Positions 5,681-44,063 of a stretch of 64,000 nucleotides of DNA are shown here, piece after piece. The notes below the pieces were generated by a model. It searched no databases. It was not told where the DNA came from and worked only from the letters and a program-made list of their open reading frames with translations. How positions within the stretch are numbered: the first letter of the stretch is position 1; every line of letters starts with the position of its first letter. Made by a program: the position numbers and the translations under genes. This DNA is from Alcaligenaceae bacterium (GTDB lineage: Bacteria; Pseudomonadota; Gammaproteobacteria; Burkholderiales; Burkholderiaceae_B). The stretch covers positions 1 through 64,000 of the forward strand of contig CANCMG010000007.1 of the NCBI GenBank assembly GCA_947378965.1, read 5' to 3'.

Positions 5681-7027
5681 ATGAGTCAAAGAAAATATTT
5701 CGGTACCGATGGTGTGCGCGGCAAGGTGGGTGGCGAGGTCATCAATGCTGAATTCGCACTCAGGCTTGGTTATGCGGCCGGTAAAGTGCTGGCTAAAGAA
5801 CATTCGGCGCGGCGTGGCCGTCCGACCGTATTGATTGGTAAAGACACGCGCATCAGTGGTTATATGCTTGAATCGGCGCTCGAAGCAGGCTTTGCTTCGG
5901 CCGGTATTGAAGTGTTGCTCGCGGGCCCGCTACCCACCCCAGCAGTGGCGTATTTGACGCGCACCTGGCGTTTGGTGGCCGGTATTGTGATCAGCGCCTC
6001 GCACAATCCTTATTACGACAATGGCATCAAGTTTTTTTCGTCTAAAGGGATGAAGCTGCCAGACGAGACTGAGGCTGCGATTGAAGCTGCGCTAGATGAA
6101 CCCATGCAGTGTGTCAGTTCTGAAAAGCTCGGACGCGCGCGTCGTATTGACGATGCTCCGGGTCGTTATATTGAGTTTTGTAAAAGTACTTACCCATCGG
6201 ATTTGGATTTAGGCGGTTTGAAACTCGTGGTAGACGCTGCTAATGGTGCTGCGTACCATATCGCACCTCACGTGTTTCGCGAGTTAGGTGCCGAAGTCAC
6301 CGCAATTGGCGTCTCACCCGATGGGTTCAATATTAATAAAGACGTCGGTGCCTTACATCCTGAAAGCTTAGCTGCTGAAGTCCGTGCACGTGGCGCAGAT
6401 CTTGGCATTGCGCTTGACGGTGACGCCGATCGTGTGCAAATGGTAGATGCCACCGGGCGTGTCTATAACGGCGATGAGCTGTTATACGCGGTGCTGCGCG
6501 AACGCCTCTTGCGCGGCCCCGTTGCAGGTGTCGTAGGTACTCTCATGACCAACTTCGGCTTTGAGCGTCAGCTTAAAACGATGGGCATTCCCTTTGAACG
6601 TGCTCAAGTCGGTGACCGTTACGTGCTAGAGCAATTGCGCAATCGCGGCTGGCTCTATGGTGGCGAAAGTTCAGGACATTTGTTGTGTCTAGATTCGCAC
6701 ACGACGGGCGATGGCATCGTTGCAGCCTTGCAGGTGTTGGCAGCCTTACAGCGCAGCGGCGAGACCCTATCTCAATGGGTGTCTGCCTTGCGCTTGTACC
6801 CACAAAAAATGATCAACGTGGCACTTAAACCCGGTACTGATTGGGCAACCCATGCCGGTTTACAGGCGGCTCAGCAACAAGCCGAAGCCTTACTCGGTGA
6901 ACGCGGACGCGTCTTGATTCGCGCGTCGGGTACCGAGCCCAAACTACGCTTGATGGTCGAGGCCGATGACGAGGCGTTGGCGACAAAGTGTGTGGCTTTG
7001 CTGGCGGCAGTTGATTTGACGAGCTAG
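5681..7027 (+). CDS. glmM: Phosphoglucosamine mutase
   Basis: [36 protein letters not shown] motifs; CGGAG SD. Confidence 0.95.
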
Positions 7028-30105: not shown

Positions 30106-30894
30106 TCAAGTCAGAAACATGACATCTCGTTTAGAGGGGTTTAGGTGCTGCCCGCCGTCGACAAAGAGTGTAGTGCCTGTGATGGCATGTGCCGACACTA
30201 AGTACACCACAGCGTCGGCGATATCTTCGGGTGTAGACGATTTGCCTAAAGGTGTTTGTTGGTGCGCCTGCTCGAACCCTTCTTGTGTTTGATCCCCAGA
30301 GATCAACGTCAGCCCGGGTGCAAGCCCGACCACTCTGAGCTCGGGCGCATACGCTTGAGCAAGCAAGGTGGTGGCTTGGTAGAGCGCCGATTTTGATAAG
30401 GTGTAAGACAAAAAATCTGGATTTGGATTAGCCAGTTTTTGATCAAGCAAATTAATGATCACCGAAGGATATGTGAACACTCGCGCAGAGACTTCTTTTG
30501 CGTGTAGGCGTGCGCGATACAGATCCCGACTCAGTGCAATCGGCGCGATCGCATTGATCTGCATATGAGTCTCAAATTGCGTGGGGCTAAATTCGGCTGC
30601 ATCGTCAAAGGCAAATAAAGAGGCGCTATTGATGATGCAATCTGGTAGACCAAGCGCAGCCGTGCACTGCGCGACTAGCGAGTCAACTTGCGTTTGTTGT
30701 GCAAAGTCTGCCTGCAGTGCAACAGCACGACGCCCTAGGCCTTGCACCGCCAACACGGTCTCTTGCGCCTCGACAACTGATTGGCCATAGTGCACACCAA
30801 TATCCCAGCCGTCTCGCGCCAAACGTAAGGCGATTGAGCGCCCTAAGCGTTTTGCAGCGCCGGTAACCAATGCGATTTTAGTAGAAGCATTCAC
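30106..30894 (-). CDS. SDR oxidoreductase, FolM/pteridine reductase-like
   Basis: ALVTGAAKRLGRSIALRLA, YTLSKSALYQAT, GLAPGLTL; next to folB. Confidence 0.8.
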   Translation of the reverse strand: MNASTKIALVTGAAKRLGRSIALRLARDGWDIGVHYGQSVVEAQETVLAVQGLGRRAVALQADFAQQTQVDSLVAQCTAALGLPDCIINSASLFAFDDAAEFSPTQFETHMQINAIAPIALSRDLYRARLHAKEVSARVFTYPSVIINLLDQKLANPNPDFLSYTLSKSALYQATTLLAQAYAPELRVVGLAPGLTLISGDQTQEGFEQAHQQTPLGKSSTPEDIADAVVYLVSAHAITGTTLFVDGGQHLNPSKRDVMFLT

Positions 30895-30963
30895 TACGTG
30901 GCCTCATGGGTTTGAGCGATTGTTGAATAAGCGATCATCAAATGTTCTCGTAGCCATGATGAT

Positions 30964-31671
30964 TCATATCGCGGCCTCGCAACCTTGATAGCTGTTAGCG
31001 ATACAGCGCGTGGCGAGCTCTTGGGCTCGGGTCACCGATTCTTTTGACATCGTTTCAGAAAGTTCGGCAAGGGTGCGTACGGCACTCTGCTCGCCCAGCC
31101 CACGCGCAATATCCAGCCACATATATGCCAGAACTTTATTCTGCTTCACGCCTAGGCCTTTTGCATAGAGCGTGCCGAGGTGACGTTGTGCGTGCGGGTC
31201 GCCTTGCGCTGCCGCCAGTGCAAACCATTTACGCGCTTCAACAGGATTTGGTGTCACACCAAATCCATTTAGATTCATCAAGGCCAAGCGATACTGCGCG
31301 TTCGGCTCGGCAGCAGCGGCCGCTAACCCGTACCAGCGCAAGGCTTGCTTGTCGCTGTGCGCCACGCCTCGACCCGCTTCATACATAAATCCCAAATGGT
31401 ATTGCGCACTCGCATGGCCTTGCGCTGCAGCCTTTTCAAACCAGGCACGCGCCTGCTTATAGTCTTGTGCAACGCCTTGACCGTTGTCGTATAGCACCCC
31501 CAACATGTTTTGTGCCTCGGCGTTACCGCGTTGGCCGAGCTGGTTGAGTTGCGCGACGGCCTCTTGGGTTTTACCGCCTTCAAACAGTGCCATGCTTTCA
31601 GAGACGGTTTGCGCCTGACTGCTTAGGCATAGCAGCGTTAGACAAGCGGCAAGTAAATAGTGCAACGTCAT
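30964..31671 (-). CDS. Secreted Sel1-like repeat protein
   Basis: Signal peptide MTLHYLLAACLTLLCLSSQAQT; multiple AxxWFxxAAxQGxxxAQ repeats. Confidence 0.88.
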   Translation of the reverse strand: MTLHYLLAACLTLLCLSSQAQTVSESMALFEGGKTQEAVAQLNQLGQRGNAEAQNMLGVLYDNGQGVAQDYKQARAWFEKAAAQGHASAQYHLGFMYEAGRGVAHSDKQALRWYGLAAAAAEPNAQYRLALMNLNGFGVTPNPVEARKWFALAAAQGDPHAQRHLGTLYAKGLGVKQNKVLAYMWLDIARGLGEQSAVRTLAELSETMSKESVTRAQELATRCIANSYQGCEAAI

Positions 31672-31712
31672 GTGATCTTGAGGCAAAGGGCAAGTGAAGG
31701 GCTTGGTGTCAT
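31668..31712 (-). CDS. Mini-ORF MTPSPSLALCLKIT* inside the 41-bp junction repeat
   Basis: 14 codons; ATGA overlaps on both sides with mini-ORF 31709-31753 and the Sel1 gene. Confidence 0.3.
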   Translation of the reverse strand: MTPSPSLALCLKIT

Positions 31713-31753
31713 GTGACCTTAAGACGAGAAGAACGTAAATGGCTTGACGTCAT
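31709..31753 (-). CDS. Mini-ORF MTSSHLRSSRLKVT* inside the 41-bp junction repeat
   Basis: 14 codons; its ATG overlaps the upstream gene's TGA (ATGA). Confidence 0.3.
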   Translation of the reverse strand: MTSSHLRSSRLKVT

Positions 31754-32547
31754 GTAATCTTGATCGACAGATCTGGCATACGATCAAGTTTGCACAGGAT
31801 CACGTCGCCTTTGACAACCGGGCCGACATTTTCAGGTGTACCCGAGTAAATAATGTCACCAGCAAATAACTCGTTTGCTTCAGACAGTTTTGAAATCTGC
31901 TCAGCCACAGACCAAATCATTTGATCCAGAGTCGCCCGTTGTTTAACCACGCCGTTCACGGCAAGAGAGATTGTTTCTTTCGAAAAACTACCGATTGCAC
32001 TGACCGGGTAAATGGGCCCAATGGGCGCCGAGCGATCAAACGATTTGCCGATTTCCCAGGGTTTTTTCTGATCGCCCAGCATGCGCTGCAAGTCACGCCT
32101 GGTCATGTCTAAGCCAAGCGCATAACCATACACATGTTCAAGCGCGCGCTCGATCGAAATGTCTTTGCCGCCGGACTTCAGTGCTGCCACCAACTCGACC
32201 TCATAGTGGTAGTTTTTAGTGAGGCTCGGGTAGGGGTGATCCACTACCTGACCTGGGGCAACGTACTGAATCGCATCGGTTGGCTTCTGAAAAAAGAAAG
32301 GGGGTTCGCGCGTAGGATCTGAACCCATCTCGCGCGCATGCGCGGCATAATTACGACCGATGCAATAAATGCGACGCACCGGAAACTGCTGCGTGCTGTT
32401 CGCGATCGGGATAAAGGTTTGCTCAACGGTGAAAAGCGCTTTGGCTCCTGGCTGCGCACTTGCCTCGCGGCTCACCCCTACTGTCGCAGTGGCTGCTATT
32501 GCCGCCAAGCCTGCTTTGAGGCTGTCACGTCTAGAAATCATGTTCAT
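31750..32547 (-). CDS. Fumarylacetoacetate hydrolase family protein with Tat-type signal peptide
   Basis: IYCIGRNYAAHAREMG, YHYEVELVAAL; N terminus MISRRDSLKAGLAAIAATATVGVSREASAQ. Confidence 0.88.
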   Translation of the reverse strand: MNMISRRDSLKAGLAAIAATATVGVSREASAQPGAKALFTVEQTFIPIANSTQQFPVRRIYCIGRNYAAHAREMGSDPTREPPFFFQKPTDAIQYVAPGQVVDHPYPSLTKNYHYEVELVAALKSGGKDISIERALEHVYGYALGLDMTRRDLQRMLGDQKKPWEIGKSFDRSAPIGPIYPVSAIGSFSKETISLAVNGVVKQRATLDQMIWSVAEQISKLSEANELFAGDIIYSGTPENVGPVVKGDVILCKLDRMPDLSIKIT

Positions 32548-32581: not shown

Positions 32582-34039
32582 TTAGCGCAATAACTTGCTG
32601 CGAATTTTTGAATAACCACTTGCCAGATCGTAGGCGTGCCCAAGTTGTAGCACGCTCATGTCGCTTTGTACCGGGCCGATAATCTGTAGCCCAACGGGCA
32701 GCCCACCGCTGGTAAAGCCCGCGGGTGCTGCCAAGGTCGGTAGTCCGGCCATCGTGGCAGGGATAACCGACTGCATCCAGCGGTGGTAGGTATCCATTGC
32801 TTTGCCGGCAACCTGCTTAGGCCAGTGCTCTTCGGCGGCAAACGGACTAACCTGCGCCGCAGGCATGACTAAAAAGTCGAACTGTTCAAACAGGCGGCGC
32901 AGCTCTTGATACCAAGCCGTACGGACTTTGGCCGCTGCAAAAACGTCGGGTCCTGACAAGGCGAGGCCGCGTTCGATCTCCCACACCGCCTCGGGCTTGA
33001 GTAAGGCGCGCGAACTGGCAGAGTGATAGTGGTGGGCGTTGCCCCCAGCAAAGGTAAAGCTGCGCAGCGTGAGCCAGGCGTTCCAGAGTTGTTCAAGATC
33101 AAATGTAGGCACGGCCGCCTCAACCGTACTGCCAATGGTTTTGAAGTGTTGGAGAGCAGTTTCGGTGATCCCTAATAGCCCCGCTTCAATCGGCAAATGC
33201 CCGCCTAAATCCCCGAGCCAGCCAATGCGGGTGCCACGCAACTCGCGCTCAAGCGGTTGCTCAAATAATTTGACATCATCTTGTCTGCGCGATAACGGCA
33301 AGCGCGCGTCAAAGCCGGCTTGTACTGAAAGTAACAACGCCAGATCAGGGATATTGCGTGCCATGGGGCCCGTGACGCTGAACTGCTGAAAAAAGACTTC
33401 TTCGCCAGGGCCGTGCGGCACACAGCCTGGCGAGGTTCGAAAGCCAAACACATTATTAAAGGCTGCAGGCGTGCGCAGCGATCCCATCATGTCAGAACCG
33501 TCAGCAACGGGCAGCATATTCAAGGCCAGGGCAACGCCCGCGCCGCCACTGCTGCCACCCGCGCAGCGCGAGGGGTCAAAGGCGTTGCGGGTGATGCCGT
33601 AGACAGGGTTGTAGGTGTGTGCGCCCAAGCCAAACTCTGGCGAGTTGGTACGCCCGACAAAAATAGCCCCGGCGGCACGTACGCGCGCATTGGCCGCTGA
33701 ATCGGTCGTGGTGACTTGTCCTTTAAAGATCGGTGAGCCGTTGGTAGTGATCATGCCTGCCACAGGGGCGATGTCTTTGGGCGCCTGCGGAAACCCGTGC
33801 AACACGCCCATGCTTTGTTTGCGATCTAGCTGTGCATCGCGTTCGCGTGCTTGCGCAAATAGGGCGTCGGGGTCAGGCATGGCCACGATGGCGTTGACGG
33901 TAGGATTTTGTTGGTCGATTTGCACTAAGAACGCTTCGAGAACTTCGCTACAAGACACCTCGCGGCGATGGATCGCGCGCGACAGGCTGACAGCATCGAG
34001 CGAAACAATAGAACTGGAGGGGGCGGCGGCTGAGGTCAT
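32582..34039 (-). CDS. Amidase (amidase-signature family)
   Basis: GSSGGAGVALA motif, amidase-signature architecture; start inferred at 34039. Confidence 0.88.
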   Translation of the reverse strand: MTSAAAPSSSIVSLDAVSLSRAIHRREVSCSEVLEAFLVQIDQQNPTVNAIVAMPDPDALFAQARERDAQLDRKQSMGVLHGFPQAPKDIAPVAGMITTNGSPIFKGQVTTTDSAANARVRAAGAIFVGRTNSPEFGLGAHTYNPVYGITRNAFDPSRCAGGSSGGAGVALALNMLPVADGSDMMGSLRTPAAFNNVFGFRTSPGCVPHGPGEEVFFQQFSVTGPMARNIPDLALLLSVQAGFDARLPLSRRQDDVKLFEQPLERELRGTRIGWLGDLGGHLPIEAGLLGITETALQHFKTIGSTVEAAVPTFDLEQLWNAWLTLRSFTFAGGNAHHYHSASSRALLKPEAVWEIERGLALSGPDVFAAAKVRTAWYQELRRLFEQFDFLVMPAAQVSPFAAEEHWPKQVAGKAMDTYHRWMQSVIPATMAGLPTLAAPAGFTSGGLPVGLQIIGPVQSDMSVLQLGHAYDLASGYSKIRSKLLR

Positions 34040-34283
34040 GGCAGAAGCTCGTGCAAAAGACGCTATTGTGCCACCGCAGCGTTTGCTATGGCTTGTACTA
34101 GATTGGCCAGATGAAAACACGACATATCAAGGATTTCCCTATGTTTCATCGACACCCCCACTTTTGAGCGCTGACAGAGTTCGATCGGGGGTCACTAATT
34201 TCTACCAAAATTAGCCGTCAGTGAGGTATCTTGTTAACTCTAGAACAATATTGATTGAGCCGCACAGGCCAACAGGAGCAGAC

Positions 34284-41453: not shown

Positions 41454-43208
41454 ATGACAACCGAAGAAAAAAAACCAAACATTAAAACCCCCGAGTCTTT
41501 GCGCAGTGCACGCTGGTTTGCCCCCGATGACTTGCGCTCGTTTGGGCATCGCTCACGTGCCATGCAAATGGGCTACGGCCCCGAAGACTGGGCCGGTAAG
41601 CCAGTGATCGGTATTATTAATACCTGGTCTGATATCAATCCCTGCCATAGCCATTTCAAGCAACGCGTCGAAGACGTGAAGCGCGGTGTCTTGCAAGCAG
41701 GCGGGTTTCCAATTGAGCTGCCGGCGCAGTCTTTGGCCGAACAGTACGTTAAGCCCACCACGATGCTATACCGCAACTTGCTGGCGATGGACGTTGAAGA
41801 ACTCTTGCGCTGCCACCCGATCGACGGTGCGGTGCTGATGGGCGGGTGCGACAAGACCACGCCTGCGCTGTTGATGGGCGCTACCAGTGCCGGTCTGCCA
41901 ATGATTTACGTGCCGGCGGGCCCCATGTTGCGCGGTAACTGGCAGGGCAAAACGCTAGGCTCTGGCTCTGACGCCTGGAAGTTTTGGGACGATCGTCGTG
42001 CCGGCCTGATTAATCAAACGCAGTGGCTTGAGATCGAAGGCGGTATTGCGCGCAGTCATGGCACGTGTATGACGATGGGTACGGCCAGCACCATGACAGC
42101 GATTGCCGAGGCCCTTGGCATGACCCTGCCAGGCTTTTCGTCTGTTCCAGCACCCGATTCAAATCACATGCGCATGAGCGCCGAGTCGGGTCGTCGTATC
42201 GTCGAGATGGTCTGGGAAGACCTGACCCCGAACAAAATTCAAACCCATGCCGCCTTCGAGAATGCGATCGTGATCGCGATGGCGATGGGTTGCTCGACGA
42301 ATGCGATCATTCACGTGATTGCGCAAGCTAAGCGCGCAGGGTGTGACATTGGTCTTGACGATTTCGATCGCTTTAGCCGGATCGTTCCGGTGATCGCCAA
42401 CGTGCGCCCGAGCGGCGAACAGTATCTGATGGAAGACTTCTACTATGCAGGTGGTTTACCGGGCCTGATGACGCGTATCCCCCAGCACCTGCATCTGGAT
42501 GCTCTGACGGTCACTGGCAAAACTCTCGGTGAAAATATCGCGGGCGCAGGCGTCTATAACGATGACGTGATTCGCCCTGTCGATAATCCGATCTATGCCG
42601 AAGGCGCGCTAGCCGTGCTCAAAGGTAATCTGGCCCCCGATGGTTGCGTGATTAAGCCCAGCGCCTGCCCCGAGCATTTACACCGTCATACGGGCCCGGC
42701 GTTGGTTTTCGATGACTACCCATCCATGAAGGCCGTGATTGACAGCGACGATCTTGATGTGACTGCTGATCATGTTTTGATTTTGCGTAATGCTGGTCCG
42801 CAAGGCGGGCCCGGGATGCCCGAGTGGGGCATGTTGCCCATGCCTAAAAAACTGCTCAAGCAAGGTGTGCGCGATATGTTGCGCATGTCAGATGCGCGCA
42901 TGAGTGGCACAAGTTATGGCGCCTGCGTATTGCACATTTCGCCCGAGTCGTATGTCGGTGGCCCGTTAGCGCTAGTTAAAAATGGCGACATGATCTCGGT
43001 TGATGTACCCGCCCGCACGATTAACCTCGAGATTTCTGACGCCGAGATGGCAGCACGCAAAGCAGCTTGGAAAGCCCCTGAGCCTCGCTACGAGCGTGGC
43101 TATGGCTGGATGTTCTCTAAGCATATCGAGCAGGCCAATGAGGGCTGTGATTTTGATTTCTTGCGAACCGATTTTGGTGCGCCAGTGTCCGAACCCGACA
43201 TCTATTAA
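41454..43208 (+). CDS. IlvD/Edd-family dehydratase (sugar-acid dehydratase type)
   Basis: GIINTWSDINPCHSHFKQRVEDVKRGV, MGGCDKTTPALLMGA, SHGTCMTMGTASTM. Confidence 0.92.
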   Translation: MTTEEKKPNIKTPESLRSARWFAPDDLRSFGHRSRAMQMGYGPEDWAGKPVIGIINTWSDINPCHSHFKQRVEDVKRGVLQAGGFPIELPAQSLAEQYVKPTTMLYRNLLAMDVEELLRCHPIDGAVLMGGCDKTTPALLMGATSAGLPMIYVPAGPMLRGNWQGKTLGSGSDAWKFWDDRRAGLINQTQWLEIEGGIARSHGTCMTMGTASTMTAIAEALGMTLPGFSSVPAPDSNHMRMSAESGRRIVEMVWEDLTPNKIQTHAAFENAIVIAMAMGCSTNAIIHVIAQAKRAGCDIGLDDFDRFSRIVPVIANVRPSGEQYLMEDFYYAGGLPGLMTRIPQHLHLDALTVTGKTLGENIAGAGVYNDDVIRPVDNPIYAEGALAVLKGNLAPDGCVIKPSACPEHLHRHTGPALVFDDYPSMKAVIDSDDLDVTADHVLILRNAGPQGGPGMPEWGMLPMPKKLLKQGVRDMLRMSDARMSGTSYGACVLHISPESYVGGPLALVKNGDMISVDVPARTINLEISDAEMAARKAAWKAPEPRYERGYGWMFSKHIEQANEGCDFDFLRTDFGAPVSEPDIY

Positions 43209-43254
43209 GCGAGATCCTCGACGAGCACTTTTAACTTGATATTTATTAGGCGGG

Positions 43255-43290
43255 ATGCTCGACGAGCACTCTGAACTTAATATTTATTAA
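43255..43290 (+). CDS. Mini-ORF MLDEHSELNIY* in the 41-bp repeat
   Basis: 11 codons, ATG 5 nt after a TAG, GCGGG before it. Confidence 0.25.
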   Translation: MLDEHSELNIY

Positions 43291-43295
43291 GCGAG

Positions 43296-43331
43296 ATGCT
43301 CGACGAGTACTCTGAACCCGATTACTACTAA
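43296..43331 (+). CDS. Mini-ORF MLDEYSEPDYY* in the 41-bp repeat
   Basis: 11 codons, ATG 5 nt after a TAA, GCGAG before it; resembles dehydratase C terminus SEPDIY*. Confidence 0.25.
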   Translation: MLDEYSEPDYY

Positions 43332-43343
43332 GCGAGATCCAAA

Positions 43344-44063
43344 ATGAGCACTCTTAAGCCCGAGACCCGCGAAAAACTGCTGGGGATTAGCACGGCCACA
43401 TTAGCGACTTGCCTGTTTAAGCGTGGCTTGCGCAATCAGTTTATTCAAGGCGTGCAGCGTTTATCAAAGTCCACCAAGAACATGGTGGGCGAGGCTTACA
43501 CGCTGCGCTATATCCCTGCGCGTGAAGATCTCAACACCATGGAGGTCTTTAAAGATCGCAGCCATCCACAGCGTAAAGGCATTAACGAATGCCCAGAAGG
43601 TGCTGTGTTTGTGATTGATAGCCGTAAAGATGCACGCGCTGCCTCGGCAGGTGGCATTTTGGTGGGGCGCCTGATGGCTCGCGGGGTGGCCGGTGTTGTG
43701 ACGGACGGTGGCTTTCGTGATTCGGCTGAAATCGCAGAGCTCGGCATCCCAGCCTATCATCAACGCCCGTCAGCGCCTACCAACCTAACCTTGCATCACG
43801 CGATTGACGTGAATGTGCCAATTGCTTGCGGCGACGCGCCAGTGTTTCCGGGTGACGTGATGGTTGGTGATGGTGATGGCGTGATTGTGTTGCCGGCACA
43901 TCTGGCAGATGAATTGGCAGCCGAAGCGTTTGAAATGACGATTTTTGAAGACTTTGCGACAGAAGAGGTGAGGGGTGGCCGCTCGATTATGGGCTTGTAT
44001 CCCAATACCGACCCGCAAACGACGGTTGATTTTCAGGCCTGGCGCAAAAGGACTGGCCGTTGA
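43344..44063 (+). CDS. RraA-like protein (RraA / HMG-aldolase-type family)
   Basis: GGILVGRLMARGVAGVVTDGGFRD, PGDVMVGDGDGVIVLP. Confidence 0.87.
   Translation: MSTLKPETREKLLGISTATLATCLFKRGLRNQFIQGVQRLSKSTKNMVGEAYTLRYIPAREDLNTMEVFKDRSHPQRKGINECPEGAVFVIDSRKDARAASAGGILVGRLMARGVAGVVTDGGFRDSAEIAELGIPAYHQRPSAPTNLTLHHAIDVNVPIACGDAPVFPGDVMVGDGDGVIVLPAHLADELAAEAFEMTIFEDFATEEVRGGRSIMGLYPNTDPQTTVDFQAWRKRTGR

Follow-up and report, generated by a model that had tools for sequence, protein, structure and literature searches.

Tandem copies of an ATGA gene junction form chains of mini-ORFs that may relay ribosomes from FAH hydrolase to Sel1 in a freshwater Alcaligenaceae bacterium

The FAH hydrolase and Sel1-repeat genes of a freshwater bacterium are separated by two tandem copies of their own junction, and we consider it probable, from the comparison of related genomes, that the resulting mini-cistrons relay terminating ribosomes from FAH to Sel1. 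The window, that is the whole stretch of 64,000 nucleotides analyzed, is part of contig 7 of a draft genome of 4.5 Mb, and the genus is known mostly from freshwater metagenome-assembled genomes (MAGs) labelled Alcaligenaceae/Burkholderiaceae. On the minus strand, the operon runs in the order amidase, FAH hydrolase, Sel1-repeat protein, short-chain dehydrogenase and FolB-type aldolase; the position of the dehydrogenase beside folB suggests the name FolM. The features concerned are as follows, with peptides written up to the stop codon:

32582..34120, minus strand: amidase gene (Pfam PF01425, E 6e-85), the upstream neighbour, immediately 5' of the chain in FAH-less species
31750..32547, minus strand: FAH-hydrolase-family gene, 265 aa (Pfam PF01557, E 1e-47), its TGA within the first ATGA junction
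31709..31753, minus strand: mini-ORF 1, MTSSHLRSSRLKVT, 14 codons (unit 31753-31713)
31668..31712, minus strand: mini-ORF 2, MTPSPSLALCLKIT, 14 codons (unit 31712-31672), the copy adjoining Sel1
30964..31671, minus strand: Sel1-repeat protein gene, 235 aa (Pfam PF08238, E 2e-38), its start in ATGA, with the start overlap conserved
30938..30967, minus strand: mini-ORF 3, MNHHGYENI, sharing ATGA with the Sel1 stop and TGATG with mini-ORF 4, similar to the Sel1 3' end
30894..30938, minus strand: mini-ORF 4, MIAYSTIAQTHEAT, sharing TAGTG with the GTG start of the FolM-like gene, similar to the 5' end of that gene
30106..30894, minus strand: short-chain dehydrogenase gene, FolM-like, GTG start (Pfam PF13561, E 5e-30)

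The original prediction described an ATGA-linked chain leading from FAH through two 14-codon ORFs to Sel1 (minus strand, 31753-31668), and its coordinates and sequences proved exact. The FAH gene ends in ...AAGATTACATGA and its stop TGA (31752-31750) overlaps the ATG at 31753, and the Sel1 ATG at 31671 lies inside the ATGA that ends mini-ORF 2. A stop/start overlap or a spacing of few nucleotides was observed at 3/3 links from FAH to Sel1 and at 3/3 links from Sel1 to FolM in the window. The predicted 41-nt tandem repeat was also recovered: both units measure 41 nt and are identical to one another at 28/41 positions, and a divergence of this order explains why the array gave no TRF report at the score threshold of that program. 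In comparison with the first 35 nt of Sel1, the units were identical at 23/35 and 21/35 positions (shuffle p 0.0002 and 0.0007), and each consists of the 5' end of Sel1 followed by a few nucleotides from the FAH 3' end. Since the units resemble both one another and the first 35 nt of their own Sel1, they arose by duplication rather than as chance ORFs. The FAH/Sel1 junction is a single match in its own genome, with no dispersed copies. Shine-Dalgarno (SD) pairing was weak at the mini-ORF and Sel1 starts, the value for Sel1 of the window being about -0.5 kcal/mol, whereas the random median is -2.5.

To place these chains against chance, 214 gaps in 464 kb were surveyed. Chance predicts 3.25 linked mini-ORF chains there, and we observed 5; for chains with at least two mini-ORFs the expectation was 0.4, and the 2 observed both lie in the FAH-Sel1-FolM operon. 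A chain of one mini-ORF alone is weak evidence, and the cross-species data decide. Chains with one mini-ORF that were detected in the 464 kb from overlap only were close to the chance level, lacked junction similarity and were not counted.

The FAH/Sel1 units were compared in 15 species, all of one genus and all represented by MAGs. Relatives had been predicted to differ by 0, 1, 2 or 3 copies of the junction, and this series was found: no unit and a direct FAH/Sel1 ATGA overlap in G009, G006, G001, G003 and G017; one unit in G018; two units in G000, G004, G013, G030, G019, G010 and G024; and three units in G027 and G007. The direct overlap in these five relatives and the resemblance of the units to the Sel1 5' end and the FAH 3' end support the earlier interpretation of the array as a duplicated ancestral ATGA junction. 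Unit length was 41 nt in 19/21 units. Frame-breaking indels that abolish the overlap, which the original prediction had named as contrary evidence, were absent from the Sel1-adjacent unit (41 nt, ATG, open frame and NTGA retained in 10/10 species, mini-ORF 2 included), whereas the distal units of three species were altered. A 42-nt unit in G013 merges two mini-ORFs into one ORF of 28 codons, its end still lying in the Sel1 ATGA. In G007, a unit of 39 nt stops early, 6 nt ahead of the next ATG, and that link is broken; in G004 the first ATG is gone, the FAH stop is TAA and the first link is broken.

Of FAH, only the final few codons remain in six species (G030, G027, G019, G010, G024 and G007), in which the amidase now lies directly upstream and the chain is still there. 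The Sel1 start is GTG in five of these six species, yet GTGA is retained. Judged by a permissive rule, an ORF would link the amidase to the chain or to Sel1 in 5/6 of them; the chain-entry start overlaps the amidase stop in G027 and lies 8 nt past it in G030, G019 and G010 and 11 nt past it in G024. In G024 (L010), the 3' part of Sel1 and the dehydrogenase resemble those of G006 and the amidase resembles that of the FAH-less group, a mosaic that likely reflects recombination or a chimeric contig. The Sel1 protein tree was left out of the gain/loss counts because of its poor resolution and partial recombination around G024. Sel1 of G007 (L020) has shrunk to 163 codons by losing about two repeats in frame.

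We propose that FAH and Sel1 would have stood in direct ATGA overlap in the ancestor, and that a tandem duplication of about 41 bp across this junction would have created a unit made of the Sel1 5' end and the FAH 3' end. With a length of 41 nt (2 modulo 3) and an A after the start codon, each unit necessarily forms a 14-codon ORF from ATGA to ATGA. Ribosomes ending FAH would restart on a mini-ORF, terminate and restart again, so arriving at Sel1, whose start would otherwise be separated from the FAH stop by about 80 nt and lack a good Shine-Dalgarno sequence. The function would reside in the start/stop chain, the peptides being presumably functionless; translation, reinitiation at each link and an effect on the Sel1 level are the steps that we infer. 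Published measurements in E. coli and Haloferax show coupling almost gone once stop and start are about 20 nt apart, and find the final 15 nt of the upstream gene enough to support it (PMC10666635). Sel1 has been moved 41 or 82 nt from FAH, and uncoupling is therefore expected unless the copies are translated. Given this expected uncoupling and the weak SD pairing of Sel1 and the mini-ORFs, a relay is the best account, and duplications at coupled junctions may survive mainly when they recreate the junction.

The same chain could also be a neutral by-product of frequent short duplications: copying 41 bp across an ATGA junction yields a linked mini-ORF for purely arithmetical reasons, and the chain would not yet have decayed. 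The broken distal units of G004, G007 and G013 fit this explanation, which we regard as unlikely in view of the selection tests on the unit next to Sel1. These tests used ten related species (MAGs), short units and a rough tree built from the unit's own columns. Parsimony steps numbered 0 at the ATG and TGA columns, against a mean of 1.42 at the other columns. In a neutral simulation, a mean of 1.9/10 units stayed intact and 0/5000 runs kept all ten. Since any start codon with an A after it supplies the TGA automatically, the independent evidence is the ATG, the open frame and the length only, and the fair test conditions on the Sel1 start; with the Sel1 NTGA kept, P was 0.0012, or 0.026 with halved branch lengths, both values reflecting substitutions alone and being ones that indels would lower.

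By codon position 1, 2 and 3, the steps numbered 17, 18 and 20, and the mini-ORF peptide is therefore unconstrained. That the mini-ORFs encode functional peptides, as frames open in 10 species might suggest, is scarcely credible beside these equal counts and beside units that fuse or change length in some species. A regulatory leader peptide or uORF with a conserved peptide was also considered and rejected, the mini-ORFs being without codon-position bias. ATCAC just 5' of the ATG is also conserved and could point to a nucleotide element. A unit acting as DNA or RNA (binding site, hairpin or promoter), with incidental ORFs, would account for the good conservation of ATCACATGAC across units, but it is very improbable: the RNA fold was no better than shuffles (z +0.98), the region held no minus-strand promoter match and no Rfam match, unit length and frame are maintained, and the second junction of the operon keeps its overlaps with a different sequence. 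Overall, the search of the FAH-Sel1 region for RNA structure, promoters/terminators and Rfam families found nothing.

That second junction, between Sel1 and the dehydrogenase (window 30894-30967, minus strand), is bridged by mini-ORFs 3 and 4, joined via ATGA, TGATG and TAGTG. Mini-ORF 3 is similar to the 3' end of Sel1 (p 0.03 in G000, <0.0005 in G030 and 0.002 in G027) and mini-ORF 4 to the dehydrogenase 5' end (p about 0.01); in G018, the second mini-ORF at this junction also resembles the Sel1 end (p 0.0005). The two genes are directly joined in G013, G024 and G007, and the other repeat-bearing species have one or two mini-ORFs between them. The chain was unbroken in 10/10 repeat-bearing species with spacers of -4 to 111 nt, which indicates that spacer length is free and the overlaps are kept; a chain arose in the shuffled spacer with a chance of 0.006-0.14 per species. 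The overlap was absent in the distant species G009, G001, G003 and G017. The persistence of the chain in 10/10 repeat-bearing species despite large length changes argues against a neutral by-product.

The genome analysis covered stretches totalling about 2.4 Mb of 4.5 Mb. A repeat scan of own-genome stretches yielded 28 non-redundant tandem arrays of period 25-60 (mostly 30-49), with none of that period in 220 kb of G006; such an abundance of duplications favours the neutral explanation. Many of the own-genome arrays had periods near 26-49 bp, and these were absent from the G006 and G023 stretches examined. Duplications spanning a start numbered 25 in 1456 genes, and 11 in 662 genes of a further independent set. 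Those at originally close junctions, other than FAH/Sel1, were the following:

L178: spacing -4, unit 38, MKHLKRLFATAVV, in phase
L186: spacing -8, unit 43, MRESSAKLQTNSARYG and MVEPIPNVQTDASLNV, between two permease-like genes, in phase
L111: spacing +3, unit 39, in phase
L143: spacing +2, unit 53, start of the first copy CTG, in phase
L219: spacing -4, unit 47, VKLKEQEVRGKNKDER and MRLKEQLVHSKNKDET, before a dehydrogenase, in phase
L236: spacing -4, unit 41, MSRALLDLTETQRP, in phase
L223: spacing +4, unit 40, in phase
L179: spacing -4, unit 34, out of phase

With FAH/Sel1 included, the unit length modulo 3 restores the stop/start spacing in 8/9 junctions whose close status was assigned by eye (P 0.00097 vs 1/3), a proportion that argues against a neutral origin. 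This count leaves out L209, L157, L114 and L170, in which the original junction was not close, unclear or of another spacing type, and J2, which was found by its chain and not by duplication. At L219, relatives showed a direct ATGA overlap (G018 and G023), a full relay arrangement (G027) or a one-unit arrangement with +2 gaps (G004), and the links were broken in G007 and G010, as a neutral by-product would allow. At L178, a length comparison showed four relatives about 38 nt shorter over that stretch, as expected without the unit. The window holds a second 41-bp array (43191..43354, plus strand) before a gene starting at 43344 with a 12-nt spacer; its unit starts have decayed to ACG, which again speaks against neutral persistence of the FAH/Sel1 chain. 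The counterpart of this array in G007 (L132, about 6680-6800) has ATG unit starts and two 14-codon mini-ORFs.

Three further arrangements were observed. At L136/L157 (G000 contig 10, about 57000), a 41-bp array of 2.9 copies, 98% identical, copies an amidase start with an SD-like GGAAA and holds two ATGA-linked 14-codon mini-ORFs (MTTNSEHATNWKSL). At L221:14486 (minus strand), a 38-bp duplication lies within the 5' end of a gene, and the start there opens a frameshifted ORF, MTQPSNIKTLISLKHAQAI, whose terminal ATGA provides an in-frame restart of the gene (MKTLISLKHAQAIID). At L170:19034 (plus strand), a phosphoglycerate-mutase-like gene is preceded by 20-bp units that read as a chain of ORFs of 4-7 codons (MTERYIA, MIAG, MTERYIA and MIEGYIA).

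Taken together, the copy series, the start, frame and overlap kept beside Sel1, the second chain, the chains that survive FAH loss and the 8/9 junctions in phase support a relay; the broken links in G004 and G007 at FAH/Sel1 and in G007 and G010 at L219, and the out-of-phase L179, stand against it. If every link shed some ribosomes, the number of units could instead tune Sel1 relative to the upstream gene. Copy numbers of 0-3 between species would suit such dosage control, which seems improbable to us, as the relay reading has no need of tuning. Whether the relay extends to a general habit is, in our estimate, evenly balanced: a high-duplication lineage would keep junction duplications that restore spacing, relays would accumulate genome-wide and operons would stay coupled over uncoupling distances, and after loss of an upstream gene the next gene would re-feed the relay.

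The ATGA, TGATG and NTGNNTGA junctions described here resemble those of termination-reinitiation coupling at -4/-1/-8 overlaps (PMC6728339, PMC10666635, PMC12548453), with which they would share ribosome hand-over and the need for a very short distance; unlike ordinary coupled pairs, the genes lie up to about 120 nt apart with one to three mini-ORFs between them. Among known systems the mycobacterial MIRU comes closest, an insert that, as summarized in PMC12548453, keeps -4 coupling through its own ORF (Supply et al. 1997). Both are repeats with a short ORF and a -4 overlap to the neighbouring gene. However, MIRUs are, in that account, dispersed and seemingly mobile elements that insert at start codons, whereas the FAH/Sel1 unit occurs at one genomic place, the other relays differ in sequence, and the units are copies of the local junction. 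The engineered bicistronic design, as outlined in PMC12548453, likewise uses a short meaningless ORF to hand ribosomes to the next start, but from its own strong RBS, whereas the present chains occur naturally and in tandem, and would receive their ribosomes from an upstream gene. Bacterial minisatellites/VNTRs also consist of head-to-tail units of a few tens of bp in variable copy number, as seen here (0-3 units, 15 species); here, in contrast, a stop/start junction falls within the unit, whose length preserves the spacing of that junction. We found no description of tandem copies of overlap junctions in the open-access literature, the scope of our search being limited to it and excluding subscription papers.

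If they are translated, these chains would constitute a natural test of multi-step reinitiation, with the same gene pair separated by 0, 1, 2 or 3 relay ORFs in sister species, and would bear on repeated restart of post-termination ribosomes and on scanning. They would likewise illustrate how a genome can tolerate insertions at the junctions of overlapping genes, and would provide an origin for some bacterial intergenic short ORFs that are neither peptide-coding nor regulatory.
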